From Pantoea endophytica (GTDB lineage Bacteria; Pseudomonadota; Gammaproteobacteria; Enterobacterales; Enterobacteriaceae), in contig NZ_PJRT01000033.1 of NCBI RefSeq assembly GCF_002858935.1, forward strand, positions 186,001 to 250,000: 64,000 nt of DNA, written 5' to 3'. The position numbers and the translations under genes are program-made. The notes beneath the pieces are model-generated. The model had not been told where the DNA came from. It did not search any database and worked only from the letters and a program-made list of their open reading frames with translations. Shown here one piece after another: positions 7,404 through 26,196 of this stretch; the first letter of the stretch is position 1, and the number at the start of each line of letters is the position of its first letter.

Positions 7404-7745
7404 ATGCGTTTGTTTATTGCCGAAAAACCCAGCTTAGCGCGTGCGATTGCCGACGTGTTGCCAAAACCGCATCGACGCGGAGACGGCTATATTGCCTGCG
7501 GGAATGACCAGGTTGTGACCTGGTGTGTTGGGCACCTGCTGGAGCAGGCGCAGCCCGACAGTTATGACAGCCGCTATGCGCGCTGGAATCTGGCTGATTT
7601 ACCGATTATTCCGGAAAAATGGCGCCTGCAGCCACGTCCATCCGTAGCGAAGCAGTTGAAAGTGATTGAAGGCCTGCTGCAACAAGCCAGCATGGTGGTG
7701 CATGCGGGTGACCCCGATCGTGTACTGTTACAATGTTTTCATTGA
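7404..7745 (+). pseudogene. topB: Host topB, 5' fragment (DNA topoisomerase III residues 1-106) cut by island
   Basis: The first 106 codons read as a typical enterobacterial topoisomerase [33 protein letters not shown], then HAGDPDR. The reading frame then crosses the island end and adds seven foreign residues before TGA. The break falls between Arg106 and Glu107 of the TOPRIM metal-binding motif DxDxE, so the fragment lacks the third acidic residue and the whole strand-passage body. It cannot be a topoisomerase by itself. The remainder of the gene resumes at 24587 in perfect register. The start lies 21 nt after selD. Confidence 0.96.
7706..7733 (+). other. Left attachment junction (attL)
   Basis: The host arm GGGTGACCCCG is followed by the 6-bp core ATCGTG (7717-7722) and then the island end TACTGTTACAA (7723-7733). 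The core is repeated exactly at the right end (24587-24592), and the 11-bp island end is repeated there in inverse orientation. In the uninterrupted topB the core sits in the codons for Asp105-Arg106-Glu107. A 6-bp spacer between inverted arms is typical of tyrosine-recombinase crossover sites. A second TGTTAC motif at 7753-7758, in direct orientation to 7726-7731, could be an accessory binding site. Confidence 0.9.
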
Positions 7746-7802
7746 ATTGGATTGTTACGTAGATAATCTGTGAATTCGTGAAATCATCCGGCAGGTAGTT
7801 TT

Positions 7803-9134
7803 ATGGGGATCGTGCTTTGGGAACTTCCTGACTTAGTACTTGATCAGGAAATCAGAAGGGAAATTGATACTGGCACCGGCGAATTATCGATACGCTTTGA
7901 AGGTACTGGTCAGCATTTAGGCAAGCTCCCATTATTATTTATGGAAGATGGCGGCAGTATCAGAGTCGCCAATAATTGGCTGATTCATTTAAAAGCTAAT
8001 TTGCGTAAAAAAGAGGTTAATACCCAGGCTCAAGCTTTACTGCATTACTTTACCTTTCTTAATGAGATTGGCATGTCTTGGGATGAGATGCCAATCTCTA
8101 TCAGGCTACGTCCCACCTATGCCTTTCGTAAGCATTTGCGAGAGATGTTCAAACAGGGTGAATTGGCGCGCAGTACCGCTAACAGTTATATGGGATCGGT
8201 GATTAATTTTTATAAATTCTATCTGGCTCGCGATCACTTTTTTGCCTATCCTCCCTTTAAATATGAAGTAGTACGGTTACATAGAAATTCATCCCATGAA
8301 TATATGAGAAATCATTTTATCCATGTCGATACCACGGATTTAAGATTAAAACTGCCCAGTGATACCCGACACTTTGGATTATCACGAAAACTTGTTCCAT
8401 TGAGCAATAACGAATGGCAAGTCGTCGAGTCTGTATATAAAATCCGTGGTATAGGTATTTCAACCAGTGCAGGTGAGGGTAATGAGGTTCCACTATCTGA
8501 GGAATGTAAGTTAGCTATTGATCTTAGCCGATACTCTGGTCTTAGAAGAACTGAAATAATATCGTTAAGAGCAAAGCAAATTTATAAACCAGATGCTGAA
8601 CAGCTCAAGAAAAAATATCTTATCAATACTGATGGATTATTGCTTGATCCCCGACAAGGTGTTGAAACCAAGAATGGAACAATACGCACTGCTGAGATCC
8701 ACTCTGAATTAATGCAGACCCTGTATGATTATATTAATTCATCCAGATATATTAAGCGTAGAAAGAAATATGAAGAGATTTATCCGGAAAACAAAGATAA
8801 CCCGCCATTGTTGTTAAATCAAAATGGTAAGCCTTATGCCGCTAAAACACTGGATGCACGTTGGGGCGAAATCAGAAATGCGGTAAGAAAAGAGTTACCT
8901 AACTTTAATCATAAGTTTCATAATTTACGTTCAACATATGCTGTGGAAAGATTGAAGGAATTACTGAATGCTGGGCTAAAAGAGGGAAAGGCGCTTGATT
9001 ACCTACAATCGGTGATGGGACATAAAAGTAGAGCGACCTTACTGGGTTACCTAAAATTCTGTGAGGAAGAAACAATGACGGCTAATGAAGTGCATGAGAA
9101 AGCATTAAATATTATTCTCAAGAGTGATAAATAG
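7803..9134 (+). CDS. Tyrosine recombinase 1 (GmtY/TnpA-like)
   Basis: This 443-residue site-specific recombinase of the tyrosine (phage integrase) family has all the catalytic landmarks. Arg I is in YSGLRRTEII (about residue 248), the HxxR box is in HKFHNLRSTYAVERL (about residue 373), and the C-terminal box is VMGHKSRATLLGYLKF with a candidate Tyr nucleophile. Residues 60-165 resemble a SAM-like core-binding domain. It is the first gene inside the left end, 57 nt after the truncated topB frame, and no terminator is visible in between. The next gene starts 2 nt after its stop. It probably catalyses integration and excision together with the two following proteins. The individual role of each is inferred. 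Confidence 0.9.
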   Translation: MGIVLWELPDLVLDQEIRREIDTGTGELSIRFEGTGQHLGKLPLLFMEDGGSIRVANNWLIHLKANLRKKEVNTQAQALLHYFTFLNEIGMSWDEMPISIRLRPTYAFRKHLREMFKQGELARSTANSYMGSVINFYKFYLARDHFFAYPPFKYEVVRLHRNSSHEYMRNHFIHVDTTDLRLKLPSDTRHFGLSRKLVPLSNNEWQVVESVYKIRGIGISTSAGEGNEVPLSEECKLAIDLSRYSGLRRTEIISLRAKQIYKPDAEQLKKKYLINTDGLLLDPRQGVETKNGTIRTAEIHSELMQTLYDYINSSRYIKRRKKYEEIYPENKDNPPLLLNQNGKPYAAKTLDARWGEIRNAVRKELPNFNHKFHNLRSTYAVERLKELLNAGLKEGKALDYLQSVMGHKSRATLLGYLKFCEEETMTANEVHEKALNIILKSDK

Positions 9135-9136
9135 TT

Positions 9137-10921
9137 ATGGCATTTTTAAAAGAGAATAAACGCAAAACAGTAACGACATCGAACATTAATACTGACACAG
9201 TAATTAATATTAGCTTACGCGACAAATTTATAAAAGATCAAGATCGCTCTGCAAATTTTGAGCGTTTACTCTACGAAAATTGCCCTGCTATTCCTATTAC
9301 TGACAACTATATAAATATTAAAATTGATAAACCTGGTTTTGTTTATGCTAATCGACAATCACTTGTAGTACGTATTTGTAATGCAATACACAGTTTAGAT
9401 GCAACCGATCGGACTAAAGTAAATGTTTTTAATGAAACTGTACGTTTCTTAAAAATGGCAGATGAACAAAAAATCAAGAATGCTTTCTGCATTGACACGA
9501 TATCAATGTATATAAAAAATCTTGTTAGCTCATATAATAAAGGAAGTAAAGGGAAAACATTATCCGGTCGTCAAAATTCCATTAAAGCTTTATTGAAAGC
9601 TATGGACTATGAACTATATAAAAAATGTGAAAGCATGTTTATTTCTTTTCCGGCAGATACGCAGAGTGTTTCTCCTTATACTGATGGTGAAGTTAAAGAG
9701 CTTTTTTCTGCATTGCAAGCTATATATATTTGTTATGCTGCGCATCTCGAAAATGGTACTAAGCCTAAAGCTTTTCCTCTTTATGAACTAAAAGATCTAG
9801 CAGGTAATCATAAATATAAAAATAAGACATCGACAGAGAGAACAGTCTCATATAAAAATAGTGATACTGTATGGTTATCTGACTTAGTTAGGGTGGCCTA
9901 TTTTATGACATGTTTCTATACAGGTGCAAATGCATCATCGCTATTAAAGTTAAGATTGTCGGACTTCAGCGAAGAGCTATTTAAAGCTCTTAATAGAAAA
10001 ACATATAAATTAAGCACAAAAAAAGGAAGACAGTCAGGTAGAACCAATGAAATTGATGTGGGTTTTACTAAGGAAGCAAGAGTTTTTTTTGAGAGCTGGA
10101 TTAGCGTTAGCAAAAAAATAAATAATAATAAAGATGGTTTCTTGTATCCTAATCCCTCAGTTAATAATAGATCATATATGACGGATAGCAGTATGAGTAT
10201 CTTGAATAAAACGTTTGTTGATCTTGGTTTACCTGCATTGAGTAGTCAACGATTTAGAAAGACAAAAGCTTCATTAATTATGAGAGCTACAGAGAGTGTT
10301 TTCTTTGTTTCTCAGGGGCTGAATAATTCCGTTGAAACAGTAGCAAAACATTATGCAGATGGTAACGCTGTTACCACTGAGTTCTCACTGGCTTCCGCAC
10401 TGTATATCCGAGAGCAGACTGCCTTGGGAAAACCGTTAGATAAGGCCATCACTGAGAGTGCATTCCTGTACCACGACCCGCTTAAAGAGAGCGAAGCCGG
10501 TAAAGAATTTAAAAAACTGACCAATGGCTTAAGATGCGGTGGAGCATTTAAAGATAAGGCGATAAAAGTAAAAGAGGTACTGGTTAAAAATGGCTTGGCT
10601 GAACACAATGATGCGGTGGCTTGTCATAAATTTCTTGAGTGTTTTGGATGCAAGCATCACGCTATTGTCGCAGAGGTTGATGATATATGGCTTTTACTCT
10701 CATTCAACGATGTGATTCTGGAGTCTGTCACAAGGCCAGCGATTAACTCCCGCCCGTCAAACTTACTGAACAAAGTGAATAATACTATTCAGGTCATTAT
10801 AGAGCGAATGAAAAGGGAGCACACTGCGGTATACAACGAAGCCTATGATAAATACTTGGATGGAATGCATCCTCTTTGGCAGGATACGAATGACCTGGAA
10901 TTAATGCAGGGTATTTACTGA
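9137..10921 (+). CDS. Recombinase-family protein 2, apparently lacking the first catalytic Arg
   Basis: This 594-residue protein has a tyrosine-recombinase-like layout, but the Arg I position appears changed: the box usually reading TGLR is TGANASSLLKLRL (about residue 262). The second box reads QRFRKTKASL rather than HxxR. A terminal HYADG could still supply Tyr. A C-terminal Cys/His-rich segment (about residues 467-508, including CHKFLECFGCKHH) looks like a zinc-binding module. I infer a structural or regulatory partner rather than a full catalyst. Base composition is mosaic: about 32% GC at 9721-9840 and 53% at 10381-10500 by hand count, which suggests recombination within the gene. It shares one base with the next gene. 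Confidence 0.75.
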   Translation: MAFLKENKRKTVTTSNINTDTVINISLRDKFIKDQDRSANFERLLYENCPAIPITDNYINIKIDKPGFVYANRQSLVVRICNAIHSLDATDRTKVNVFNETVRFLKMADEQKIKNAFCIDTISMYIKNLVSSYNKGSKGKTLSGRQNSIKALLKAMDYELYKKCESMFISFPADTQSVSPYTDGEVKELFSALQAIYICYAAHLENGTKPKAFPLYELKDLAGNHKYKNKTSTERTVSYKNSDTVWLSDLVRVAYFMTCFYTGANASSLLKLRLSDFSEELFKALNRKTYKLSTKKGRQSGRTNEIDVGFTKEARVFFESWISVSKKINNNKDGFLYPNPSVNNRSYMTDSSMSILNKTFVDLGLPALSSQRFRKTKASLIMRATESVFFVSQGLNNSVETVAKHYADGNAVTTEFSLASALYIREQTALGKPLDKAITESAFLYHDPLKESEAGKEFKKLTNGLRCGGAFKDKAIKVKEVLVKNGLAEHNDAVACHKFLECFGCKHHAIVAEVDDIWLLLSFNDVILESVTRPAINSRPSNLLNKVNNTIQVIIERMKREHTAVYNEAYDKYLDGMHPLWQDTNDLELMQGIY

Positions 10922-12798
10922 TGAAAGAAGTTCTGAAATTTATTGATAGCAATAATATTTATGATGATCTGATCGTTTCTTTTGACACTGAAGGCAATCC
11001 ATATAGCTACTATGGTTCTGATAAGTGGTACTTATGGTCATTAAGCTTTAATGTTTCTTTCTCCAGATTATCTGGTACGTTCAAGTCGACAGTAAAATAC
11101 CTAGTTCACAAGGTGATATCTAATGATAGCTTGAAGTCAAAAAAAAGTGTTATTAAAAATATCATTGAGGGGGCTGTTATTTTTGAAAAATGCATCACTG
11201 GATGTAATGGAGTATCATATGACTTTATTGATGATGATGAGGATTTTAGGCGGTTATTAGTTGAAGCCAAAAGTAGAAGCTTAAAATTTAAAACATGGAA
11301 GAATAATCTTGTTTTTTTATCTCATTTACATAACGCAGAAGTAATAACCAGAGAGATAAAGAACTACGAAGAACTAGCATTATATTTATCTGTGAGTGGT
11401 GCATCAGTCTCACAAGCAGTATGCATTCCAGAATCTATTGCGTCTAAATATTATGGTGAGGCACTGAGCGTTATTGAAACTTATTATTCTTATAGAAATG
11501 AAATATCTTCATGCTATGATGATTATGTGTCTGAGTATTTAGAATCATCAAAACGCTATAAGTCTAATATTTCTGCAAGAAGATACGCACTTAAGAATGT
11601 TAAACGGCTACCAAAAAACATTGATATTCAATTTGACTATAGCGGCTCATGGTTATCCTGGCTCCGTGGAGCCTGTTATACCGTGATTGCAGCATTTACT
11701 GGCTGTCGGGATGGTGAGATAAAGTCTTTTGATATTGATTCCTATCAAGAGAAGAAATATGCAGGTATGACTGTTCCTGTTTTGCATGGTCTTGATACCA
11801 AACCTAATGCAGGAGGGGTAGCACGGCACACCTCATGGGTGACGATACCGAGTGTTAAAAAAGCTATCTTACTGCTTTGGGATGCATTTAGCTTTGCGCG
11901 TGAAAAGTGGCGAGAAAAAGCGGATTCAATAGTACATCCTGATGAAAGAAATGCTTTTCTTGAAAAGGTAGATAGCTTATTTGTTACGCTTCCCTATATG
12001 CGAGGACATCGACCTGAGGCTGGAAAACAATCATTAGCTCATTCTCTTAACACCTTCGTTAAATCCATTGGATATCGAGCTACAAAGGATGATGTTCAAG
12101 AGTTCGACTTATTAAATCCCTCAAGAAAAGGTGAGCTTAAAATTGGACAAATGTTGAAGGTTCATCCCCATGCATTTCGTCGGACTTTTGCTGTTTATCT
12201 GGTGCGTAATAAGTTGGCCTCTCTGCTAGATATTAAGTATCAGTTTAAGCATATGAATATAGCCATGACATCCTGGTATGCCAATCAGGCCAATATCGCT
12301 TCTTATGTTGATATGATGATTGATCAAGATCTCCAGGATGAAATTGCGGGTGAAAACCAGAACTATATGACAGATGTTTTTTACCATATTTATAATGAAG
12401 CTGAAACATTAGCTGGTCATGAAGGGAGAAGAATTAAAAACCTTAGGGCTGAGGGTGACACGCGTATCTACTTAAATCGCGAAGAAATTCGTAAGCAAGT
12501 TCAGGATGGTCGTCTTTCGATCGTGGAACACCCTGGAGGATACTGCACTAACCCAGATTGTGACAGAATTTGTGATATGACGACTTGCCAGTATAAAATC
12601 GTCACAAAAGACAAGGCAAAAAAACTCGTTAATATCAGAGAAAAATTAATTATAAAATATAATGATATTGAATCTCTTGGGCTGGATATGCCGAATGTTA
12701 CCTCGAAATTATTTTACGAAATCAGGTCGATTGAACAGGTTTTATCCGAGCATCATCTTGAGTATGTTGCTTTTAATAAAAAGGACGCTTATTTGTGA
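10921..12798 (+). CDS. Tyrosine recombinase 3 (GmtZ/TnpB-like) with C-terminal zinc motif
   Basis: This 625-residue protein has a tyrosine-recombinase catalytic region in its middle. Arg I is in FTGCRDGEIKSF (about residue 263), HxxR in VHPHAFRRTFAVYL (about 417), His in YQFKHMNIAMT, and the likely nucleophile Tyr in SWYANQ (about 452). A C-terminal Cys cluster (CTNPDCDRICDMTTC, about residues 542-556) probably binds zinc. The N-terminal 220 residues are AT-rich and unrecognised. The start overlaps the previous stop by 1 nt (TGATG) and its stop overlaps the next start by 4 nt (GTGA), so translation is coupled. Confidence 0.87.
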   Translation: MKEVLKFIDSNNIYDDLIVSFDTEGNPYSYYGSDKWYLWSLSFNVSFSRLSGTFKSTVKYLVHKVISNDSLKSKKSVIKNIIEGAVIFEKCITGCNGVSYDFIDDDEDFRRLLVEAKSRSLKFKTWKNNLVFLSHLHNAEVITREIKNYEELALYLSVSGASVSQAVCIPESIASKYYGEALSVIETYYSYRNEISSCYDDYVSEYLESSKRYKSNISARRYALKNVKRLPKNIDIQFDYSGSWLSWLRGACYTVIAAFTGCRDGEIKSFDIDSYQEKKYAGMTVPVLHGLDTKPNAGGVARHTSWVTIPSVKKAILLLWDAFSFAREKWREKADSIVHPDERNAFLEKVDSLFVTLPYMRGHRPEAGKQSLAHSLNTFVKSIGYRATKDDVQEFDLLNPSRKGELKIGQMLKVHPHAFRRTFAVYLVRNKLASLLDIKYQFKHMNIAMTSWYANQANIASYVDMMIDQDLQDEIAGENQNYMTDVFYHIYNEAETLAGHEGRRIKNLRAEGDTRIYLNREEIRKQVQDGRLSIVEHPGGYCTNPDCDRICDMTTCQYKIVTKDKAKKLVNIREKLIIKYNDIESLGLDMPNVTSKLFYEIRSIEQVLSEHHLEYVAFNKKDAYL

Positions 12799-13271
12799 TT
12801 GATGAAGAAACACTCTCTGAGCGAGGTAAACTAACGATAATCAGGCTTGAACAGGCTCTTGAGCGTTTATTAAACGGCGTTCCTGAACGGACTCCCCACG
12901 ATGGGCGAGTCAGTCTGAGCCGTATCAATCAGGAAGCGGGTCTGAGTTCGGGGGGTATCTACTATTACGATGAGTTTGTCCAGAAAGCTAAAAGAGCTAT
13001 TCACGAAAGAAAGCTCGATAATGCAGTATCTACTATCGAGTCAGGTAAAGCCTCGGTGGATAAAATGCGCGTACAAAGGGATAAAGAACGCGAGTTAAAA
13101 GAGCGTTACAGGTCTCAACGAGACGATATCAAAGCCTTCTGCGATAAGATTATTGCTAAAAATGCCCAGTTAGAATTCTCTTTGTTCGAAGCATTAGATA
13201 AGATCGAGGATCTGGAAAGGGAAGTATCAGCACTCAAGGTTGTTGATATAAGCAGCAGGAGAAGTCAGTGA
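12795..13271 (+). CDS. Small HTH/coiled-coil accessory protein (GmtX/TnpC-like)
   Basis: This 158-residue protein has a helix-turn-helix-like N-terminal half (about residues 10-70, SLSRINQEAGLSSGGIYYY) and a charged, heptad-like coiled coil in the C-terminal half (about 85-150). Small proteins of this form accompany multi-recombinase modules such as TnpC of Tn554 and, from memory, GmtX of gamma-mobile-trio elements. The likely job is binding an end sequence or bridging recombinases; this is inference. It uses a GTG start overlapping the upstream gene by 4 nt, and its end overlaps the GTG start of the island topB by 4 nt. Confidence 0.75.
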   Translation: MIDEETLSERGKLTIIRLEQALERLLNGVPERTPHDGRVSLSRINQEAGLSSGGIYYYDEFVQKAKRAIHERKLDNAVSTIESGKASVDKMRVQRDKERELKERYRSQRDDIKAFCDKIIAKNAQLEFSLFEALDKIEDLEREVSALKVVDISSRRSQ

Positions 13272-15196
13272 TTTTGTACATAGCTGAAAAACCGAGTGTT
13301 GGCAGAGCTGTCGCAGATGTGCTGCCGAAACCACATCAAAAAGGGGACGGGTTTATTAAAACCGCAAACGGTGATGTGGTGACTTGGTGTATTGGCCATT
13401 TACTCGAACAGGCTGAGCCTGATGCCTATAACCCTGACTTTAAAAAGTGGCGTAGGGAACACTTACCTATTGTGCCTGTGGAGTGGAAACACTCGGTAAA
13501 GCCCGCCACTCAGAAGCAATTTAACGTTATAAAAAAACTGATTAATGAAGCCGATGTGTTAGTCAATATGGGCGACCCCGATAGGGTTGGGCAAATTCTG
13601 GTTGATGAGATTATCAATTATTGCGGTGTCCCAAAAGAGAAGCGTGAAGCAGCCAAGCGCTGTTTAATTAACGATATGAACGCTGATGCTATCCAACGTG
13701 CGTTAAATGACCTACGCCGCAATATCGACTTTATCCCTCTGGCTACTTCAGCATTAGCGCGTGCACGCGCTGACTGGCTCTATGGTATCAATATGACCCG
13801 TTTATGTACCTTACGAGGGCAGTCATCGGGTTATAACGGTGTGCTGTCTGTAGGACGGGTACAGACGCCGGTATTAGGTTTGGTCGTTAATCGTGATTTA
13901 GAAATCGAGAATTTTGTCTCTAAACCCTTCTATGACGTGTTTATCGATCTTAAAACCGATAAAGACCAAATTTATACGGCAAAATGGAAACCGAGTGCCG
14001 CCTGTGAACCCTATATGGATGAAGAGGGGCGACTGGTGCTGAAAAAGCTGGCTGAAACCGTATTGAAGAAGGTAACAGGCCAGCCAGGAACTGTGGTTGC
14101 GGTAACTGAAGAACGGGCGAAACAAGCTCCACCATTACCCTATAACTTGTCCGCACTGCAAATCGATGCTTCCAGACGTTTTAATCTCAATGCCCAGAAG
14201 ACGCTGGATGTTTGTCAGCAGCTCTATGAGAAGCATAAGTTGATTACCTATCCTCGTTCAGATTGTCGCTATCTACCCAGCGGACACTTTGGCGATACAC
14301 ATAGAATCACTCAAGCGATCGTTAAAACTGTCCCAGGACTGGCGACAGCTGTTGAAATTGCCGATCTGTCAGTCAAATCTAAGGCGTGGAATGATGATAA
14401 GGTCAGTGCGCACCATGCCATTATCCCGACCAGTCGTGGGGTTGATACGAGTCGTCTGTCGCTTGATGAGCAGAACATCTATGAACTGGTCGCCAGACAG
14501 TATCTGATGCAGTTCTATCCGCCTTTTCAATATCAGGAAAAGCAGATTGATACTGAAGTCGGTGGTGGCTTGTTTATCAGCAGGCAAAAAGAGGTGGTTG
14601 ATAAAGGCTGGAAGGTATTATTACCGGAGCGGAAATCATCATCTGAAGATCCCGAGTTTTCAGCAGTAAGATTGCCAGAAGTTATCAAAGGCGAAAGCGT
14701 CGTCTGTATTGATGGCAAGCTGGATGAAAAAAATACCTCGCCGCCACGCCACTTTACCGATGCTTCTTTGCTATCAGCTATGACGGGCATTGCCAGATAC
14801 GTGACCGACAGGGCTATTAAAAAGGTACTTAGAGAGACCGATGGCCTGGGAACAGAAGCAACCCGAGCAGGCATCATTGAGTTACTGTTTAGGCGTGACT
14901 ATCTGACCAAAAAAGGCAAAGAGATTCACGCCACGGATATTGGCCGCAGACTGATCCTATCTCTGCCAGAAGCCATGACAAAGCCCGATATGACGGCACA
15001 TTGGGAATCTCAGCTAGAAGCGATTTCTGAGAAAAAGATTAAGTATGGTCAGTTTATGCAACCGATGGTTGATGGTCTGCATGTGTTTATTCATCAGGTC
15101 GACAATATTCGTTTTGAAGGATTGAGGGGCTTAGGCAAGGCTTCCTATAAAAAGCCATCAGCAAAAAAGTCTGCAAAACGGCAGAGTAAGGACTGA
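13268..15196 (+). CDS. topB: Complete island-borne DNA topoisomerase III, third TOPRIM acid replaced by Val
   Basis: This 642-residue type IA topoisomerase is colinear with E. coli TopB along its length. It has the N-terminal TOPRIM Glu in IAEKPS, the motif GDPDRVGQ at residues 102-109, the [14 protein letters not shown] core, and the active-site Tyr in ITYPRSDCRYLP. It also has [17 protein letters not shown] and a Lys-rich tail. Type IA enzymes relax and decatenate single-stranded crossovers with Mg2+. The TOPRIM triad DxDxE normally needs Glu at 107, and here it is Val (codon GTT). The change coincides with the island's target site: GAT-CGT-GAA in the host is GAT-AGG-GTT here. The GTG start is coupled to the recombinase operon. 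It presumably substitutes for the interrupted host gene. Confidence 0.93.
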   Translation: MILYIAEKPSVGRAVADVLPKPHQKGDGFIKTANGDVVTWCIGHLLEQAEPDAYNPDFKKWRREHLPIVPVEWKHSVKPATQKQFNVIKKLINEADVLVNMGDPDRVGQILVDEIINYCGVPKEKREAAKRCLINDMNADAIQRALNDLRRNIDFIPLATSALARARADWLYGINMTRLCTLRGQSSGYNGVLSVGRVQTPVLGLVVNRDLEIENFVSKPFYDVFIDLKTDKDQIYTAKWKPSAACEPYMDEEGRLVLKKLAETVLKKVTGQPGTVVAVTEERAKQAPPLPYNLSALQIDASRRFNLNAQKTLDVCQQLYEKHKLITYPRSDCRYLPSGHFGDTHRITQAIVKTVPGLATAVEIADLSVKSKAWNDDKVSAHHAIIPTSRGVDTSRLSLDEQNIYELVARQYLMQFYPPFQYQEKQIDTEVGGGLFISRQKEVVDKGWKVLLPERKSSSEDPEFSAVRLPEVIKGESVVCIDGKLDEKNTSPPRHFTDASLLSAMTGIARYVTDRAIKKVLRETDGLGTEATRAGIIELLFRRDYLTKKGKEIHATDIGRRLILSLPEAMTKPDMTAHWESQLEAISEKKIKYGQFMQPMVDGLHVFIHQVDNIRFEGLRGLGKASYKKPSAKKSAKRQSKD

Positions 15197-15237
15197 TTGT
15201 AAGTAGTAGCAAGCTTGACACGACCTCCTGTAGCAAA

Positions 15238-15265
15238 GAAGGTTGCCATTTGTTTAGCAGCCTTC
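15238..15265. terminator. Possible terminator between island topB and convergent regulator gene
   Basis: GAAGGTTGC (15238-15246) pairs with GCAGCCTTC (15257-15265) with one G-T wobble and a 10-nt loop, between two convergent genes. There is no convincing T-run, so this is tentative. Confidence 0.4.
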
Positions 15266-15270
15266 CTGAT

Positions 15271-15744: not shown

Positions 15745-15770
15745 ATCGGTAAAAACTCATAGGCCAAAAA

Positions 15771-16903: not shown

Positions 16904-19774
16904 ATGTCATCTTCTAATAAAAATCAACAAATTGCGATACATCATCATAGTGGCCCATTACTGATCATTGCCGGTCCGGGTTCAGGAAAAACTTATACAC
17001 TCGTTGAACGCATTATCAATCTCGTTATTGTTCACGCAGCGGCTCCTGATCAGCTACTGGTTGTCACCTTTACGGAAAAGGCAGCACAAGAGCTTAAAAC
17101 ACGACTATCAAACAGGGTTATTGAGTTAGGTATAGATTTCAATATCAATGAGATGTACTTAGGAACCTTCCACTCAATCTGCCTGAGGATATTAGAGGAA
17201 TATCGCGAATATACTCGTTTGAAGCGCTCCTTCGTATTGATGGACCAGTTTGATCAACAATATTTTATTTATCAGAAGCTGCGAGAATTCAATAATATCG
17301 AGGGTATCGAATATATTCAGGGGGAACAAAAACTTCCAGCGTGGATAAAATCAGAAAATTTAATCGGATGGTTAAATAAAGTTTCTGAAGAGGTATTGGA
17401 TGTTGAAGAGTTATGTCGTTCTTCAGATGTAGCAATTAATGCCTTAGGTAACAGCTATAAAGTGTATCAAACACTGCTAGCTAAAAATAATGCTTTAGAT
17501 TTCTCCTGTATCCAGCTCGAAACCTACTATCTCCTTCGTGAGAATCCACATCTACTTAAGAAACTTCAAGAGAAACTTGAATACCTTATGGTCGATGAGT
17601 ATCAGGATACGAATACAATTCAAGAAAAATTACTCTACCTCTTAATGGGAGAAAAACAAAACCTCTGTGTTGTTGGCGATGATGATCAAGCTCTGTATCG
17701 TTTCCGTGGTGCAAGTGTACGCAATATTCTTGAATTTCCTCAAAAATTTCCACTAGGTCGGTGTCAGCAGGTTAAATTATCCATCAACTATCGTTCTCAT
17801 CCTGAAATTGTTAGGTTTTACGATACATATATGCAAGAGAAGCCTTGGCTGAGAAAAGGAATCAATTATCGTTATTCTAAGAATATTGTTGCTCGAGATG
17901 GTATTTTTCCGAATGGTCCGACGGTAGTTAGTGCCATTACTCCTGAAGGAGATGATTGGCATGATGATGTTTATCAGCTATTAATTCATCTGAGAGACAA
18001 TGGTAAACTGAAAGATTGGAATCAGGTTGCTTTCTTATTTCGGTCAGTGAAAAACGATAAAGTGAAGTTACTGGCGAAATTTCTTGAAGATAAAGGGATT
18101 CCAGTTTATTCCCCACGCGCAAACCTGTTTTTTGAGCGAGAAGAAATTCGTTTAATGCTCGGAGTACTACATCTCGTTTTTCCGATGGTTCTACCTGATC
18201 GAAAAAAGCGTATTCAGGAAGGTAAGACTTTACCTATTTGGACCTATTATGAGCAACAATGTCTGTCACCGCTTATCTCTGAACTTAGTAAAATAGAACA
18301 CTTAGATTTAGTCTCTTGGTGTAAGAAAAAAGCACATGAACACATTAAATTAACTAAAAGTGCTGATAATTCCTTCTTAGGGATATTTTACGAGATATTG
18401 CAATTTCCGCTGTTCTCTAAATATTTGGATCAAAAGAATGGCAATGCACGTGCGCAAAGAAATTTAGCACAGTTTAGCCGAATGCTTGGCAAGTTTGAGT
18501 ATCTACATCATATCAGTGTGTTAAATCCTAAATATATAGAACGGAATTTGAGAGATCTTTTTGATAACTTTCTAAGATTTTTACATGACGGAGGGATTGA
18601 TGAGTACGAAGATATGTCCGAGTATGCTCCTTCAGGTTGTATCTCCTTCTTAACCATACACCAGTCAAAAGGATTAGAGTTCCCTATTGTTTTTGTTGGT
18701 TCTCTTGAAGCAACTCCTCGTAAGCAATATACGGATCTTGACGAAATTATCGAAACCCAATATATGGGGAAAAAACCATTTGAACCATTAGATGACACGA
18801 AATATTTTGATTTCTGGCGGCTCTATTATACTGCATTTTCACGGTCGCAAAATTTACTTATACTCACAGGTCAGGGAAAATCGGGGCATGGAAGAACACC
18901 GTCTCGGCATTTTGTCGATTGCACTGCAAGTTTAACGTATTGGCGCGAGGCTAAATTTCAACTTGCTGCGTTAGATATTGAGTCAGTAAAAGATGTGAAT
19001 ATAAAAAATGAGTATGCCTTTACATCTCATATTACATTATTTGAAACCTGCGCAGAGCAATACCGGTTATTTAAAGAGTTAGAATTCCAGCCGGTCAAAG
19101 CAAGCCCCATGCTATTTGGTACGTTAATTCATGAAACCCTTGAAGATATTCATAAAATAGCTCTTAGAGATGAAGGATTCAAAATTACCAAAGATAATGT
19201 CAAGATTTGGTTGATGGATAATTATCAAAACCTAGCAAATCGTGAACGAATGTATTTGGGAGAATCCACATTAGGTGCGGCGTTGAACCATGTGATGCGC
19301 TATGTCGAGCGAAAGAATGACGATTGGTCTGATATCAAAGAAACGGAAGTCGATATTTCTTTAGTTAAAAGTCACTATATACTAACAGGCAGCGTCGATT
19401 TAATTAAAGGTGCTGATGGAACAGTCGAATTGGTGGACTTTAAGTCAGAACGAAAACCTGATATGGAGCGTGATAAAGAACGTATCCAGCATCATAAAAG
19501 ACAGCTTGAGATCTATGCTCATTTGGTAGAAGAGCGCTATGGTTATCAAGTGAGCAAAATGCACCTATATTTTACCGGTGAAACCAATGGATTACCGAAC
19601 ATATCTTTTAACAAAACAAGTGGTACGATCGACAAAACGGTAGCGGAATTTGATAGAATCGTTGGCAGGATTGAGAGCAAGGATTTTTCGCTCAAGTCAC
19701 GACCAGATAAGACCTGTGTTGACTGTAGTGCAAGAGCCTACTGTGACCGAAAGAATTGGAATTTCTGTGGTTGA
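16904..19774 (+). CDS. UvrD-type superfamily 1 helicase fused to Cas4/AddB-like Fe-S PD-(D/E)XK nuclease
   Basis: The start is the ATG at 16904 with AAGG six bases upstream, giving 956 residues; a longer TTG reading from 16868 lacks support. SF1A helicase motifs run in order: Walker A AGPGSGKT (about residue 23), motif II DEYQDTN (about 231), VGDDDQALYRFRGA (about 257), INYRSHPEIV, TIHQSKGLEFPIVFV, and YYTAFSRSQNLLIL. The C-terminal domain is a RecB/AddB-type nuclease with GTLIHETLEDIH and the catalytic VDFKSERK (about 845). Four cysteines, one in FETCAEQY and three in CVDCSARAYC, match the Fe-S pattern of Cas4/AddB nucleases. It should unwind and cut DNA. It is followed 16 nt later by a methyltransferase gene, so a role in phage restriction is inferred. 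Confidence 0.9.
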   Translation: MSSSNKNQQIAIHHHSGPLLIIAGPGSGKTYTLVERIINLVIVHAAAPDQLLVVTFTEKAAQELKTRLSNRVIELGIDFNINEMYLGTFHSICLRILEEYREYTRLKRSFVLMDQFDQQYFIYQKLREFNNIEGIEYIQGEQKLPAWIKSENLIGWLNKVSEEVLDVEELCRSSDVAINALGNSYKVYQTLLAKNNALDFSCIQLETYYLLRENPHLLKKLQEKLEYLMVDEYQDTNTIQEKLLYLLMGEKQNLCVVGDDDQALYRFRGASVRNILEFPQKFPLGRCQQVKLSINYRSHPEIVRFYDTYMQEKPWLRKGINYRYSKNIVARDGIFPNGPTVVSAITPEGDDWHDDVYQLLIHLRDNGKLKDWNQVAFLFRSVKNDKVKLLAKFLEDKGIPVYSPRANLFFEREEIRLMLGVLHLVFPMVLPDRKKRIQEGKTLPIWTYYEQQCLSPLISELSKIEHLDLVSWCKKKAHEHIKLTKSADNSFLGIFYEILQFPLFSKYLDQKNGNARAQRNLAQFSRMLGKFEYLHHISVLNPKYIERNLRDLFDNFLRFLHDGGIDEYEDMSEYAPSGCISFLTIHQSKGLEFPIVFVGSLEATPRKQYTDLDEIIETQYMGKKPFEPLDDTKYFDFWRLYYTAFSRSQNLLILTGQGKSGHGRTPSRHFVDCTASLTYWREAKFQLAALDIESVKDVNIKNEYAFTSHITLFETCAEQYRLFKELEFQPVKASPMLFGTLIHETLEDIHKIALRDEGFKITKDNVKIWLMDNYQNLANRERMYLGESTLGAALNHVMRYVERKNDDWSDIKETEVDISLVKSHYILTGSVDLIKGADGTVELVDFKSERKPDMERDKERIQHHKRQLEIYAHLVEERYGYQVSKMHLYFTGETNGLPNISFNKTSGTIDKTVAEFDRIVGRIESKDFSLKSRPDKTCVDCSARAYCDRKNWNFCG

Positions 19775-19790
19775 GCGAAATGAGGTAAAA

Positions 19791-21674
19791 ATGAAGAGAT
19801 TAGAGGTAAATATGGCCAACGAAGAACAAACTAACATCGAAAAGTATGAATTTGAGCCAATTAAAGGCTATCCGATGCTGAACTGGAAAGGAAAGCGCCC
19901 GTTTCGTTCTACACAATATTTTCCTGCGCAGTTAAAAGAAGTGTATGGGCATGAAGATGAAAATGGCTGGATAAATAAAATTTTTTGGGGGGATAACCTT
20001 CAAGTCATGAGCCATCTGCTCAAAAATTTTCGTGGGAGAGTAGATCTTATTTATATCGATCCCCCTTTTGATTCAAAAGCCAATTATGGGAAGAAAATTA
20101 AATTAAAGAATAAAAGTGGTATTAACGGCGACCAAAATTCTTTCGAAGAAAAACAATATACAGATTTATGGAGTAATGATGAATATCTTCAATTTATGTA
20201 TGAAAGATTAATTTTGTTAAAAGAATTACTATCTGATACCGGTTTGATTTATTTACATTGTGACTATCATAAATCTCATCATTTGCGATGTATTTTAGAT
20301 GAGGTTTTCGGTCAGGAAAATTTCATCAATGAGTGTATTTGGAAAAGAACTACTGCTCATGGGGATTCAAAACAAGGGGCAAAAAGATATGACATCGTTC
20401 ACGATAATATTTTGTTATATTCCAAAACATCAAGCTTTAAATGGAATACCCAGTTTGTCCCGTTTTCGGACGACCAGATAGCTCAACAATATAATAAAGA
20501 AGACGAGAATGGGAGAAAATACCGCCTTGTAACACCAACAGCATCTAAACCTGGAGGTGATACATCTTATGAATATAGAGGAGTTACACCTCCTCCTGGA
20601 CGTTTCTGGGCTTATAAAAAAGAAACCATGAGGAAATTTGAAGAAGAAGGTAAACTATATTTTAGTAGCACAGGACAACCATATATAAAATATTTTCTAG
20701 ATGAAAGGCCTGGTGTTGCTGCATCAACATTGTGGTCGGAAATTCCTATTTTATCGCCAACGGCAAAAGAAAGATTACATTATCCGACTCAAAAACCAGA
20801 AGCATTGATAGAACGGATTATAAAAACAGCAACTGATGAAGGAGATTTGGTTCTTGATGTATTTATGGGGTCGGGAACAACTCAGGCTGTATCAAGTCGT
20901 TTGAAAAGAAAATTTATAGGGAGTGATATTAATCTTGGAGCGGTACAAACAACTACCAAGAGATTGGCCTTACGTGAAGCTGACTTTGAAGTTTATAACG
21001 TAAATAACTATGAGATTTTTAGGAATCCACTAGAAGCAAAAAGCTTACTGATTGAAGCATTGGAGGTTCAATTAATTGATGGCAACATAATCTATGATGG
21101 CGAAAAAGAAGGCTACAAAGTCAAGATTATGCCAGTTAACCGTATTGCAACGAAAGAAGACCTCAACGAATTAGTCGCAAATTTTCCATATAAAAAATTT
21201 GAGGAGCGTAAGGCTGCTAACGCAAATAAACCTGTCGAAAATATTATGCTGATTTGTATGGGGCATGAGCCAGGCTTGGGTGCTGCACTTGAAAATGAAT
21301 GCGGTTATAAACTAAAAATCGAAGTGGTTGATATTTTACGTGATAAGTCAGATTTAATCTTTAAATATGATTCAGAAGCAATCATTAAAATTAAAGACGG
21401 TAAATTGGTCATAGATGAATTTTATCCCCGTAACTTGCTGCAAAAACTTAGCCAGCAAAAAGAAGATATTAACGAGTGGCGAGAGATGGTGGAGTCTATC
21501 ATGATCGACTGGAATTACGATGGTGCCGTTATGGAGCCAGTTGTTATCGATATCCCAGATAAAAACGAGTTTGTTGTAGGCGAATATAAGATCCCTGAGG
21601 GTGCAAGCAACATTAAAATTAAGATCACGGATTTGCTCTCTGAGTCTTACGAAGAGGTGATCGCACATGGCTAA
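19791..21674 (+). CDS. Type III-like DNA methyltransferase (Mod)
   Basis: The start is the ATG at 19791 with GAGG five bases upstream, giving 627 residues; an internal ATG at 19812 is also possible. It is a beta-class amino-methyltransferase: the catalytic motif IDPPFDSKANYG (about residue 90) precedes the SAM-binding motif DVFMGSGTTQA (about 357), the order found in type III Mod subunits. The middle section between them is probably the target-recognition domain, so specificity cannot be read. Residues 440-627 form a C-terminal extension that may contact the endonuclease subunit. It overlaps the next gene by 8 nt. It probably modifies adenine and protects host DNA. Confidence 0.92.
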   Translation: MKRLEVNMANEEQTNIEKYEFEPIKGYPMLNWKGKRPFRSTQYFPAQLKEVYGHEDENGWINKIFWGDNLQVMSHLLKNFRGRVDLIYIDPPFDSKANYGKKIKLKNKSGINGDQNSFEEKQYTDLWSNDEYLQFMYERLILLKELLSDTGLIYLHCDYHKSHHLRCILDEVFGQENFINECIWKRTTAHGDSKQGAKRYDIVHDNILLYSKTSSFKWNTQFVPFSDDQIAQQYNKEDENGRKYRLVTPTASKPGGDTSYEYRGVTPPPGRFWAYKKETMRKFEEEGKLYFSSTGQPYIKYFLDERPGVAASTLWSEIPILSPTAKERLHYPTQKPEALIERIIKTATDEGDLVLDVFMGSGTTQAVSSRLKRKFIGSDINLGAVQTTTKRLALREADFEVYNVNNYEIFRNPLEAKSLLIEALEVQLIDGNIIYDGEKEGYKVKIMPVNRIATKEDLNELVANFPYKKFEERKAANANKPVENIMLICMGHEPGLGAALENECGYKLKIEVVDILRDKSDLIFKYDSEAIIKIKDGKLVIDEFYPRNLLQKLSQQKEDINEWREMVESIMIDWNYDGAVMEPVVIDIPDKNEFVVGEYKIPEGASNIKIKITDLLSESYEEVIAHG

Positions 21675-24390
21675 AGGTGCTCAAGACAACTTCGAACTTA
21701 ATAACTCGTTTTATATCCACCTACATGAGTTTTACAAGCAGAAACGTGGTTTCGTGCGTAAGAATTATACTCGACTGAGTAAGGCGTTCCTCGATTATAA
21801 TGATCCTTCACGACCAGGGAGTTTTCTCCGAATCCCTCAATTTGAAGCGCTTGAAATCTATGTGTTTATTAAAGAATTTTTAGATAATAAGCCTGTTTAT
21901 CAGTTGTTTGAAGATTGGTATACCAGCCAAGGTAAGTTTGAAGGACGTGTAACAGGTATTGAGGCAGTTGAAGGTCAAATAGTACAAGGTGATATGTTTT
22001 GGGAGATGTCCCAACAAGATTACAAAGGTATCTTTAAAAATATGAAGGCCAGCAATGCTGGTCGTTTGTATCCAAACTATATTTTTGCCCTGACCATGGG
22101 AACGGGTAAAACCATCCTGATGGCAACTTGTATCTTTTACGATTTCCTCGCAGGTAATAAAAAAGGTAACGATGAACGCTTTATTCAAAATGCGCTTATC
22201 TTTGCCCCAGATAAAACCGTTTTACAGTCACTAAGAGAAATTGAATCGTTCAGTCACGCCAAGGTTGTGCCACCAGAATATATGCCAATCGTAGCGGAAT
22301 TTAAGTTTCACTATCTTGAAGATGCAGGTGTATCACTCAATACGCTTGATGGTTCAAAGTTTAATATTATTGTATCTAATAGCCAGAAAATAATCCTAAA
22401 ACGCGATAGTAAAAGTAAATCAAGCGTTGATAGATTGTATAGCTCAGGCAAAGATATTTACCAAGGCTTAGGCGATATTGGTGATGCAGTTGCTGGTATC
22501 TTGGATATCGATCCAGATTCACTTGCGGTAGCACCTGAAACCGAAGGTGATCTGGTTACAAACCAGCGTTTTGAAAAATTAAAAAGACTGCCACAGTTAG
22601 GGATCTTTGTTGACGAAGCCCACCATGCTTTTGGAGATCAATTAGCCAAAGATATGGGGGTGAAAAAAGCCGCTAATTCTCTGCGTAAAACTATTGATGA
22701 GCTGGCTATTAACTTAAAACATGCTGGTACTCGAGTTGTAGGTTGTTATAACTATACGGGAACACCTTATGTTGGTAAAAGTGTTCTTCCTGAGGTGGTG
22801 TACGCTTATGGTTTGCGCAAAGCTATCGATAACAATTATTTGAAACAAGTTCGTCTAAATGGCTACAGTAATACAAGGCACGAAGATTTCCTCGAGATTA
22901 CGATTAATAACTTTCTCGACGAAATGCACCATTTAAGTGAAACATCATTGGATATAAATGGCCAAGAGATTACCAAGCCTTTTAGACCGGGAAATATGCT
23001 CCCGAAAATGGCTATCTTTGGTACTACGATCGAAGAGATTACGACAGAAATTCGCCCTGCAGTAGAGAATGTTCTAGCCAAACGTGGGATTTCATCAGAC
23101 AGAATTCTGGTAAACGTAGGTGACGCTAAAGTTACAACCGATGACGATATCCGTGAGTTTAACCGTCTTGACACACCTCAATCAGAAAAACAATTTATCC
23201 TGTTGGTTAATAAAGGGCGTGAAGGTTGGAACTGTCGCTCTCTATTCTCTGTAGCTCTGTACCGTGAGCCAAAATCAAAAATATTTGTGCTTCAGGCTAC
23301 TATGCGCTGCTTACGTGCTATTGGCAAAGTACAATACACAGGTCATGTTTATCTCACTCAGGACAATCTGAAATTGCTCGATAAAGAGTTAGAAGCTAAC
23401 TTCCGAGTATCAGTGGATGATATTAAAGAGCCTGATCCGAACAAAGAAACTGTTCATATTCGTGTACTACAACCACCAGTTAAGATCCCAATTAAGCGTG
23501 TCAGACGTAGTTACAAATTGGTGGAAAAGGATGAAATTGTACAGGGCTATAAGATAGGCTTAGACATAATAGAACTCAATGATTATCGTTTAATCCATGA
23601 GGTTCGTGAAGGCATGAGAATGCCTGATGACCTTGGTAATACGAAAAAAGCGATAAGAGATGATCTTTCTTATCTAAAAGTTCAGAGAAAATTCTCACGT
23701 ATTTCTCTGGTCGCTGATATTGCACGTTACCTCAATAAACCGTGTATTGAGATCGATAAAATTATCTCTTTAACAGAAGAAAGCTTTGATGGAATATTAG
23801 CCTTAGTAAATCAGTTTAACGAAGTACTTTATGACCAAGTGATTCCTCGTCTATTTAAGGCGATGTATGACATCAATTCTGAGAGTATCGAAGAAGAGTT
23901 CGAAGTCGAATTGGTTACAGAACCGCCGATAGATCCTGGTTATTACACTGTGACAGCGGCTAAAGATAAGATTATTCGTAAATTAGATTCTGAGGTATCT
24001 AAGATAGCGGAGCGCAGTTTCCACTTAGATAATTACTGCTTTGATTCTAATCCAGAAAGACAGTTTTTCTGGGATATGCTGCATAACGATAAGGTAGAAA
24101 AAATCTGGTTCACTGGCATGCTAACACATGGGCAAAGTGATTTTGTTATTCACTATGTAGATTCCGATACTCAGCGAGTCCGTAGTTACTATCCTGATTT
24201 TCTGATCAAGAAACAGGATGGTTCTTACGTGATGATTGAAGTTAAGGGCGAACATATGATTGACTCTCAGAATGTAAAGGACAAACAGGAAGCCGCTGAA
24301 CTTATGGGGGTTTCAGCTGGAATAGGTTATGAAATTATTAGGGGGAAAGATGCCGCAGCTGGTTCGTACGGGCGAGACTTCTTAAATTAA
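21667..24390 (+). CDS. Type III-like restriction subunit, DEAH helicase/translocase with C-terminal endonuclease
   Basis: This 907-residue SF2 translocase has Walker A MGTGKTIL (about residue 144), motif II VDEAHH (about 316), motif III TGTP (about 365), and motif VI QATMRCLR (about 543). It ends with a PD-(D/E)XK nuclease domain: YYPDFLIKKQDG followed by MIEVKGE (about 842-860). This is the layout of Res subunits, slightly shorter than EcoP15I Res (about 970 residues). It overlaps the methyltransferase gene by 8 nt, so the two are translationally coupled. A helicase-nuclease upstream in the same operon is not usual for type III restriction. A hairpin terminator follows. Confidence 0.92.
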   Translation: MAKGAQDNFELNNSFYIHLHEFYKQKRGFVRKNYTRLSKAFLDYNDPSRPGSFLRIPQFEALEIYVFIKEFLDNKPVYQLFEDWYTSQGKFEGRVTGIEAVEGQIVQGDMFWEMSQQDYKGIFKNMKASNAGRLYPNYIFALTMGTGKTILMATCIFYDFLAGNKKGNDERFIQNALIFAPDKTVLQSLREIESFSHAKVVPPEYMPIVAEFKFHYLEDAGVSLNTLDGSKFNIIVSNSQKIILKRDSKSKSSVDRLYSSGKDIYQGLGDIGDAVAGILDIDPDSLAVAPETEGDLVTNQRFEKLKRLPQLGIFVDEAHHAFGDQLAKDMGVKKAANSLRKTIDELAINLKHAGTRVVGCYNYTGTPYVGKSVLPEVVYAYGLRKAIDNNYLKQVRLNGYSNTRHEDFLEITINNFLDEMHHLSETSLDINGQEITKPFRPGNMLPKMAIFGTTIEEITTEIRPAVENVLAKRGISSDRILVNVGDAKVTTDDDIREFNRLDTPQSEKQFILLVNKGREGWNCRSLFSVALYREPKSKIFVLQATMRCLRAIGKVQYTGHVYLTQDNLKLLDKELEANFRVSVDDIKEPDPNKETVHIRVLQPPVKIPIKRVRRSYKLVEKDEIVQGYKIGLDIIELNDYRLIHEVREGMRMPDDLGNTKKAIRDDLSYLKVQRKFSRISLVADIARYLNKPCIEIDKIISLTEESFDGILALVNQFNEVLYDQVIPRLFKAMYDINSESIEEEFEVELVTEPPIDPGYYTVTAAKDKIIRKLDSEVSKIAERSFHLDNYCFDSNPERQFFWDMLHNDKVEKIWFTGMLTHGQSDFVIHYVDSDTQRVRSYYPDFLIKKQDGSYVMIEVKGEHMIDSQNVKDKQEAAELMGVSAGIGYEIIRGKDAAAGSYGRDFLN

Positions 24391-24400
24391 TAAAAATAAT

Positions 24401-24433
24401 CCAATAAAGCCTCTTCTTGTAGGGCTTTATTGG
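24401..24433 (+). terminator. Terminator of the cargo operon
   Basis: A perfect 11-bp stem, CCAATAAAGCC (24401-24411) and GGCTTTATTGG (24423-24433), with an 11-nt loop, begins 10 nt after the restriction-subunit stop. It would also stop island transcription from reaching the topB 3' fragment and ynjH. Confidence 0.7.
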
Positions 24434-24575
24434 ATAACTAATTAGTGCTGGAAGTTAGTAAAACCTGCATGGCTGACTTACCTTATGGAAAGGTGTTTGT
24501 ATGAAAATCCCCAAAACCATGAAATCAATATTTCTCCATAAAAATCATAATAATAAATATTTTCACAAAAAAATC

Positions 24576-24603
24576 TTGTAACAGTAATCGTGAAGGTCAA
24601 CTG
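24576..24603 (+). other. Right attachment junction (attR)
   Basis: The island end TTGTAACAGTA (24576-24586) is the exact inverse of the left end. It is followed by the 6-bp core ATCGTG (24587-24592) and the host arm AAGGTCAACTG. Joining the two island ends around one core would form an attP with perfectly symmetric 11-bp arms. The rebuilt attB has a TGACC/GGTCA inverted repeat 11 bp apart around the core. Confidence 0.9.
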
Positions 24604-26196
24604 CTGGTGGATGAAGTGCTGGATTATCTGCAGCTCGCACCAGAGAAACGTAAAGCGGTGCAGCGCTGCCTGATTAACGATCTTAATCCTTCGGCGGTTG
24701 AACGTGCGGTTGGGCGCTTACGTGAGAACCGCGAATTCATTCCGCTGTGTGTGTCTGCGTTAGCGCGTGCGCGCGCCGACTGGCTGTACGGCATCAACAT
24801 GACGCGCGCCTTTACCTTGCTGGGCCGTAACGCCGGTTACGACGGCGTGCTGTCGGTTGGCCGCGTGCAGACGCCGGTGCTGGGTTTAGTGGTGCGCCGC
24901 GATGAAGAGATCGAAAACTTTATCCCTAAGGACTATTTCGAAGTTAAAGCGCACATCGTCACGCCCAAAGACGAGCGTTTTGTCGCGACATGGGTGCCAA
25001 GCGATGCTTGCGAGCCGTGGCAGGATGAAGAGGGGCGTTTGCTGCATCGTCCGCTGGCGGATCACGTGCTTGAGCGCATTAATGGTAAGCCGGCGCTGGT
25101 CACCGGATATAACGACAAACGTGAATCCGATACCGCACCGCTACCATTTTCGCTTTCTGGCCTGCAGATCGAAGCCGGTAAGCGCTTTGGCCTCAGCGCG
25201 CAGAACGTACTGGATTGCTGTCAGCGGCTTTATGAAACCCATAAGCTGATCACCTACCCGCGTTCCGATAGCCGCTATCTACCCGATGAGCACTTTGCCG
25301 GACGCCATGCGGTGCTGAACGCCATTCAGGCGCATCAGCCCAATCTGACACCGCCAACGGATTTTAATCCCGATCAGAAGAACCGCTGCTGGGACGACAA
25401 AAAGGTCGATGCGCACCATGCCATCATTCCCACTGCGCGTGCCAGTAAGGTTAATCTGACCGAAAATGAGGCCAATATTTACGGCCTGATCGCCCGCCAG
25501 TATTTAATGCAGTTTTGCCCGGATGCGGTGTTCCGCAAATGCGTTATTGATCTTGATATCGGCGGCGGAAAATTTATCGCCAAAGCGCGTTTTCTGGCCG
25601 AAGCCGGCTGGCGTGCGCTGCTCGGCAGCAAAGAGCGTGACGAGGAGAACGATGGCACGCCGCTGCCGGTCGTCGCTAAAGGTGATGAGCTGCTGTGCGA
25701 GCGCGGCGAAGTGCTGGCGAAGCAGACGCAACCGCCGCGTCCGTTTACCGATGCGACGCTGTTGTCTGCGATGACCGGCATCGCCCGCTTTGTGCAGGAT
25801 AAAGAATTAAAGAAAGTGCTGCGTGCAACCGATGGTTTAGGTACGGAAGCGACGCGTGCGGGCATTATCGAATTGCTGTTCCGCCGCACTTTCCTGGTGA
25901 AAAAAGGCCGTTATATTCATTCAACGGATGCAGGCAGGGCGTTGATCCATGCACTGCCAGAAATGGCCGCCCGGCCCGATATGACGGCGCAATGGGAATC
26001 GACGCTTACCCGGATTAGCGAGAAGTCTTGTCGCTATGATGAGTTTATGCAGCCGCTGGTCAGCACCTTGATTGGGCTGATTGGTGAAGCACGCCAGCGA
26101 CCGTCGTTACAGGCCTTTCGCGGATTGACAGCGCCTGGGGCCAAAAAGAAAGCCAAACCGAAAACGGCTCGTCGCAAAACCAAGGAGACAGAGTGA
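24587..26196 (+). pseudogene. topB: Host topB, 3' fragment (from Glu107 to the C-terminus)
   Basis: From the core ATCGTG the sequence resumes at Glu107 of DPDRE and continues without stop or frameshift to a TGA at 26196. It contains [14 protein letters not shown], the active-site Tyr in [25 protein letters not shown] and a Lys/Arg-rich tail. GC-rich host codon use contrasts with the island copy. A GTG at 24607 and internal ATGs could start a truncated protein, but it would lack the N-terminal TOPRIM Glu and both Asp residues, so no activity is expected. The island's own terminator cuts it off from upstream transcription. The intact frame suggests recent insertion. Confidence 0.95.

Follow-up and report, generated by a model that had tools for sequence, protein, structure and literature searches.

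A GInt-type island that splits topB at its active-site codons and carries a probable replacement topB in its recombinase operon

Some islands and phages in tRNA or protein genes restore the end of the gene that they enter, as the abstract on Islander states for tRNA genes. The element described here lies in a 64,000-nucleotide stretch of a Pantoea endophytica contig (the whole stretch is called the window below), and it resembles those islands and phages in that it appears to compensate for the damage of its own insertion. While they rebuild one end of a gene from a short identical segment, this island interrupts topB, the host gene for topoisomerase III, and brings a whole second topB with its own start codon, the product of which is 53% identical to the TopB obtained by rejoining the host pieces. 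From comparisons of sequence across genomes, it is concluded that the island TopB probably serves as a working replacement.

The GInts (Tn6571-family islands; Bardaji et al. 2017, PMC5385486) are described, in the parts of that account covered here, as inserting site-specifically and as having a four-gene operon for three recombinase-type proteins and one small protein, cargo after ginD, a short AT-rich 3′ end, short flanking repeats, and a 6-nt exchange. The island in topB is alike in all of these respects. It differs in its target. At the sites described for GInts in the same parts (gene ends, intergenic sites, or a 5′ end with an outward promoter), the target stays usable or is re-expressed, whereas the island in topB interrupts the codons of an active site and has an entire substitute gene in its operon. 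The words topoisomerase and topB are absent from the main text of that paper.

The closest precedent for a whole target-like gene is tnpABC-tgl of Tn552-II (Wan et al. 2025, PMC12486829), a Tn554-type tyrosine-recombinase element in which the target-like gene tgl follows the recombinase genes; the authors suggest that tgl rescues the disrupted gene. Unlike the island in topB, Tn552-II is a tnpABC element of staphylococci with a small target gene, and tgl keeps an att sequence (i-att2), whereas the island topB has a fixed amino-acid change at the site. The account of Tn552-II, in the part covered, holds no comparative series, selection test, or in-place takeover. The elements known as SEs (PMC10214605) also show a 6-bp footprint beside inverted terminal motifs, and in them the host supplies the left core and the element the right one, as in the E. 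coli island discussed below. They differ in their core genes, intA, tfp, intB, and srap, and in the part of that source drawn on here their clusters are separate from the GInt proteins. Among the papers listed by searches of an open-access library, a scope that leaves subscription papers mostly outside, neither a GInt in topB nor TopBs with the motif DPDRV came up.

The island occupies positions 7723-24586 of the window (16,864 bp; features are on the plus strand unless stated otherwise) and interrupts host topB directly 3′ of the DPDR codons. The 5′ part of the host gene (7404..7722), which adjoins selD upstream, holds codons 1-106 and the first base of codon 107, and its last six bases are a core, ATCGTG (7717-7722). 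The same core (24587-24592) opens the 3′ part (24587..26196). When the host flanks are rejoined at the core, they give a single open frame for a 640-aa TopB, in agreement with the original prediction that the host gene was cut inside its DPDRE codons. The ends of the element are an exact 11-bp inverted repeat, with the left arm TACTGTTACAA at 7723..7733 and the right arm TTGTAACAGTA at 24576-24586. Within the window, TACTGTTAC is found once, at 7723 at the left end, and GTAACAGTA is found once, at 24578 at the right end. The right arm closes an AT-rich 3′ end (24391..24586; G+C 0.296 over 196 bases), and the G+C of the element is 0.38-0.40 as against 0.53-0.58 in the flanks measured.

The island topB (13268..15196) encodes a complete topoisomerase III of 642 aa and is the fifth gene of the operon. 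The GTG start at 13268 overlaps the preceding 158-aa gene, whose stop codon ends at 13271, by 4 nt, as had been predicted, and in the enterobacterial copies an AGGAG lies upstream of the start. The NCBIfam families PRK07726 (852 bits) and topB (744 bits) both match above their cut-offs, and the protein aligns across 638 residues with the solved E. coli-type TopoIII. Its motif is GDPDRVGQ, and the site equivalent to the host insertion point reads GGCGACCCCGATAGGGTTGGGCAA. The four matches of a TopB search in the window's own genome comprise both pieces of the host gene, the copy in the island, and a TopA-like gene at 28% identity, with no second intact TopB among them.

Related loci were found via the recombinase, not via topB. 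A ginCD DNA search matched three of 5426 E. coli genomes, and because the three elements are 100% identical to one another in ginA and topB, they are counted as one element. A GinC search of genome contigs gave seven more loci, in Pantoea sp. WMus005, Pantoea anthophila, Tatumella, Pseudoalteromonas, Photobacterium (two loci), and Halomonas. All ten further loci have topB after ginD (11/11 with the window), and the break in host topB falls at residues 104-107 everywhere: in the window, in all three E. coli genomes, and in all seven of the others. Across the window, the E. coli element counted once, and the seven others, the left junction falls on the same base in 9/9 cases, with host GAYCCNGAYCGNG followed by the left arm, which is kept as YACTGTTACRAT. 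Eight of the nine right junctions are readable and all run into A[AG]GGNCAR of host topB; the right junction of the Pseudoalteromonas element was not found. The original prediction had asked whether a topB copy always follows this recombinase set and whether insertions always fall at the same codons, and both expectations were borne out. Chance or an assembly artefact behind the insertion can be rejected because the junction is base-identical in different hosts.

The K-12 sequence at the insertion place is GGATCGTGAAGG. In the E. coli island the core is ATCGTG on the left and ATGATG on the right; therefore, the left core is host-derived and the right core element-derived. The host cores seen at left junctions (ATCGTG, ATCGGG, ATCGCG, ACCGTG, and ACCGCG) are all synonymous. 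The element sits in one orientation, with ginABCD-topB downstream of the host topB start. A further intact host topB, which had been named as the finding that would make rescue unnecessary, was sought and was absent from the window's genome and from seven further element-bearing genomes searched whole. In two of the three E. coli strains (L034 and L036, 19926-21094), ISEc52 lies between ginC and the ginD start and topB is intact; these elements may be immobile yet still supply TopB. In Photobacterium iliopiscarium (L042, 18195-18929), a second TopB-like C-terminal fragment, 60% identical to the island TopB of the window, lies downstream of the intact island topB and may be the trace of a second element, since decayed, at the same site.

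The motif is GDPDRVGQ in every island TopB and GDPDREGQ in ordinary TopBs. The earlier account of the island gene was otherwise borne out but had overlooked this fixed active-site substitution, DPDRVGQ, at the crossover codon. In an alignment of 13 distinct V-type and 28 E-type TopBs, the E-type proteins show conservation of at least 95% at 203 columns. Position 107 is the sole fixed difference between the two types among these columns, and 185 of them are identical in every V-type protein. At five more columns, where the E-type varies, the V-type is fixed to a residue unseen in the E-type set. The V-type proteins depart from the DxDxE acidic triad, with Val as the third residue in 13/13, compared with Glu in 28/28 E-type proteins.

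The core starts at the second base of codon 105 (Asp), spans the whole of codon 106 (Arg), and stops after one base of codon 107, and the bases just to its right are the second and third bases of codon 107. Because residue 107 is Glu, the base after the core is fixed as A; it is a second codon base, at which no synonymous change is possible. The drift seen in host cores is synonymous, and therefore such drift does not save the host. The island TopB of Photobacterium SKA34 has a left half-site and core (GGCGATCCTGATCGTG) identical to those of the host gene, while the first two bases to the right of the core are TT in the island TopB and AA in the host; a wobble base four bases on also differs. 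The change from Glu107 to Val would spoil the right half-site, and the element would then avoid integrating into its own rescue copy. Self-immunity through Val107 is an evenly balanced proposition.

Genome and virus pattern surveys rule out DPDRV as a common TopB variant. Across the class, the V pattern was found in 2/369 genomes, the window and one non-TopB frame, although this sample is a weak yardstick, with the wider pattern matching just 7/185 genomes. The pattern was found in 21 stretches of IMG/VR, none of them TopB-like. A survey of 148 genomes of the order gave a wider-pattern match in 95, and fewer than half of the Glu matches in it were checked for being TopB; 27 E-type TopBs were read, and L110 gave no open reading frame. 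The TopB matches with Val in this survey were the window and the genomes G085, G146, and G071, and the fetched matches with Ala or Asp (L078, L079, L085, and L086) were not TopB. An Aeromonas caviae TopB, the top row of a search of a plasmid collection, is E-type. A family survey of 198 genomes, at least 129 of which had a match at E 1e-28, added one more V-type TopB, in G766.

The ratio of nonsynonymous to synonymous divergence (dN/dS) is 0.04-0.07 for V-type TopBs over seven pairs with unsaturated synonymous divergence (four V-type pairs were saturated) and 0.10-0.17 for the gin genes, which indicates that the V-type TopB is under strong purifying selection. The V-type TopBs are one clade, with support of 100/99, with or without the motif masked. 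Within this clade, the closest partner of G146 and G071 is the Pseudoalteromonas element. G085 branches as the sister of the enterobacterial copies, and the Halomonas element branches outside it; G766 is placed with the enterobacterial copies, at an unresolved fork.

These four genomes hold the V-type TopB at a native locus. In G085, G146, and G071 the sole matches are the V-type TopB and a TopA-like gene, and in G766 the V-type TopB is the single match at E 1e-28 among the matches listed. GinB was not found in any of the four, in a search made without a positive control, and a GinC search of the genomes of the order gave no match in G085, G146, or G071. When G085 is compared with two congeners, the upstream neighbors are 73-93% and the matched downstream neighbors 68-80% identical, but identity falls to 62% between its TopB and the E-type TopB of the congeners; the gene beside topB has no match in the lists of open reading frames. 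For G146, comparison with one congener gives 75-97% identity over the upstream neighbors, except that the adjacent gene stands at 57%, as does TopB, and the downstream genes are unmatched; the locus is not shared by two other congeners. In G766 the order is ydjA-topB-xthA (xthA named from sequence), with no selD match in the stretch. The search for element remnants beside the in-place V-type genes gave just one string of 9 bp that resembles an arm, at position 11987 of L117 and 44 bp past topB, which is probably due to chance. The simplest reading of these neighborhoods is that the native topB locus has been taken over by the element's TopB more than once. The purifying selection, together with genomes in which a V-type gene at the native locus is the only TopB matched and no gin gene was detected, supports the original prediction of functional rescue.

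The gin genes of the window, of 443, 594, 625, and 158 aa, are co-oriented and closely packed, with a 2-nt gap or overlaps of 1-4 nt. The ginA-like gene (7803..9134), first in the GInt gene order, encodes a tyrosine recombinase (Pfam Phage_integrase, 2.2e-08). The ginB-like gene (9137..10921) is without a Pfam match and resembles the second gene of other GInt-like operons, and the ginC-like gene (10921..12798) scores 26 bits for Phage_integrase, just under the Pfam cut-off of 27.1, and has homologues in other genomes. The ginD-like gene (12795..13271) has no Pfam or NCBIfam match and shares 27-37% identity with its counterpart, gene 4, in ten distant operons. The 6-bp core at both ends, which can differ between left and right, agrees with the short flanking repeats and 6-nt exchange of the GInts, as topB followed by variable cargo and the AT-rich last 196 bases agree with their cargo and 3′ end. 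Elements of the Tn554 family have two recombinase genes and tnpC, while here there are four recombination genes, three of them recombinase-sized. In SEs, known here by description, tfp is second and srap fourth; in the window, genes 1 and 3 match Phage_integrase (gene 3 just below the cut-off), and gene 2 has no match. By comparison with GInt-like operons of other genomes and the published GInt layout, the element is classed as a GInt-type island, a known type.

A GinC search of the order gave a match in 25/295 genomes, window included, with the other identities at 24-42%. The ten distant GInt-like operons, taken with wider flanks from the 24 genomes other than the window, have the same gene order as the window's gin operon and detectable homology to it; ginA is seen in 9/10, with one at a contig end. 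L072 and L073 look like near-copies. No topB was found in the 2.8-11.2 kb beyond ginD in these ten, which rules out TopB as a requirement of all GInts; in the remaining GinC-matching genomes, topB was looked for within short flanks only, and G103 (L007/L115) stops at the contig edge. In six of the distant operons (L070, L071, L072, L074, L075, and L077), the gene before ginA is glutathione-reductase-like, an assignment backed by NCBIfam in one of the six, and has an intact 3′ end, apparently a shared GInt site. GInts at a site of this kind need no substitute gene. An obg gene lies ahead of the gin genes in L115. Phage records gave no GinC match; 253 plasmid records match, all below 60% identity (20.8-30.9% in the 40 listed).

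Replacement and rescue of topB are, on this comparative evidence, very likely. The best explanation for the whole set of observations, and a reasonably probable one, is a subfamily of GInts specialised on the DPDR-E codons of the toprim active site of TopB, with a substitute topB in the operon. A transcript from the host selD-topB promoter, from a promoter of the gin operon, or from both would run through ginABCD into the new topB, which would be translated from the start that overlaps ginD, with the AGGAG of the enterobacterial copies upstream. Because of this read-through, a cell that loses its own gene would gain the substitute at once. For a Pseudomonas GInt, transcripts have been shown to enter ginA from outside and to continue through the gin operon, and transcription into the cargo is called likely (PMC5385486, in the part covered). 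Over time, hosts would grow dependent on the island copy, which in some lineages would have taken the native topB locus for good.

Several points weigh against this explanation. Since E. coli survives without topB, rescue need not be essential. Loss also seems tolerated in some other strains, because in G812 and G686 (L118 and L119) host topB is broken by frame changes or stops and no island copy is among the matches listed. Two of the seven element-bearing genomes (G664 and G666) hold another TopB, 41-42% identical. Promoter and terminator scans gave nothing above shuffled sequence; of these results, the one for promoters counts against the explanation. The V clade has a single origin, and therefore the coincidence of the change at residue 107 with the crossover codon is one evolutionary event, spotted post hoc and, by simple counting, expected at 1/203 to 3/203. 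The histories of TopB and the gin genes are also partly uncoupled. Between the window (13268-15196) and the Tatumella element (L038, 12302-14230), TopB is 97% and the neighboring gene for a helix-turn-helix (HTH) protein 95% identical, as against 64-76% for the gin genes (64-67% for GinA and GinB) and 66% for the 157-aa gene beside topB, and synonymous divergence is 0.43 for TopB and 2.3 for GinA. This mismatch suggests that topB has been exchanged among elements, which would be mosaic.

The position of topB inside the recombinase operon could also mean that the island TopB takes part in the reaction of the element itself, for instance in unlinking circular or replicative intermediates, with its kinship to the target secondary. 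TopB is common on plasmids, with at least 5000 plasmid records matching, and some GInts may excise replicatively (PMC5385486, in the part covered). This is improbable, given that the ten distant GInt-like operons have no topB in the flanks covered, that in the same source four gin genes are enough for integration and excision of a mini-GInt, and that some genomes keep a V-type TopB although searches detected no gin gene in them. Passive acquisition of topB like any other cargo, with a coincidental match to the target, has a basis in the diverse cargo of GInts, which starts right before or after the ginD stop (PMC5385486, likewise in part). It is very hard to credit when all 11 loci keep topB in place while the later cargo differs between the window and the E. 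coli elements, and when topB is more constrained than the recombinases. These 11 loci support the claim of the original prediction that the replacement is not random cargo.

It is unlikely, though less so than a role in the element's own reaction, that the change from Glu107 to Val alters the enzyme, making it weaker, differently regulated, or prone to trapping, in which case it would be a modifier of host topology or an addiction factor, not a plain substitute. The D111/D113/E115 triad of E. coli TopA, third residue included, is called strictly conserved and is tied to religation (PMC7823277, in the part covered); the V enzyme might therefore be altered and not equivalent, a further point against simple rescue. 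Other changes in TopA that hit Mg binding lead to trapped complexes and cell death (PMC7587558, in the part covered). Val is fixed in all V-type proteins, and codons one base from Glu, GTA in L084 and GTG in L082, are unreverted, which suggests that Val suits the background of the V-type enzyme. Against an altered enzyme, the Mg ligands named in solved structures are the first Glu and the two Asp residues, not the third acidic residue (PMC6101483 and PMC7587558, both in part), and there is therefore room for a tolerated change there; in addition, most of the conserved E-type columns are identical across all V-type proteins, and the V-type protein is the only TopB matched in four genomes. A literature search on residue 107 of TopoIII brought up no measurement among the papers listed. 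About equally doubtful is the reverse direction of events, in which the V-type TopB was first chromosomal in a marine lineage and was captured by GInts, the in-place genes being ancestral. In its favor, three lineages have V-type genes in place, the data leave the clade without a firm root, and the trees do not settle where L117 belongs among the enterobacterial copies. Congeners, however, have an E-type TopB at the same locus, with upstream neighbors far more similar than TopB, and L083/L084 and L082 lie inside a clade of element-borne copies.

Beyond topB, the 157-aa gene noted above (15271..15744, minus strand) adjoins topB in the enterobacterial elements at 66-74% identity and is without a family match. 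The HTH gene (15849..16154; 101 aa), also beside topB in those elements, resembles restriction control proteins. The cargo that follows (16868..24390) encodes a UvrD-type helicase with a PDDEXK domain (968 aa), an N6/N4 DNA methyltransferase (674 aa), and a ResIII-type protein (907 aa), and with the control-protein-like gene upstream, it is probably an unusual defence or restriction module. Downstream of the island, at ~27460-27670 of the window on the minus strand, there are two near-identical tRNA-like stretches, apparently tRNA-Tyr by eye.

The subfamily of GInts proposed here would represent a bacterial case in which a mobile element with a specific site swaps an entire conserved gene for a version that is altered exactly at the element's cut. 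It raises how an active site can be targeted without harm to the host, how self-immunity might arise from one non-synonymous base, and how a type IA topoisomerase might work without the third acidic residue. More tentatively, and with the balance tipped slightly against it, the system may be nature's equivalent of a gene drive with recoded rescue. Such an element would target bases that the host cannot change without changing its active site, destroy the resident allele, and install a substitute that evades recognition through an amino-acid change which this enzyme background tolerates. The substitute could then outlive the element, end up as a gene of the host itself, and protect the lineage from reinvasion. 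It would also offer a route for in-place gene replacement, seen in three host lineages.

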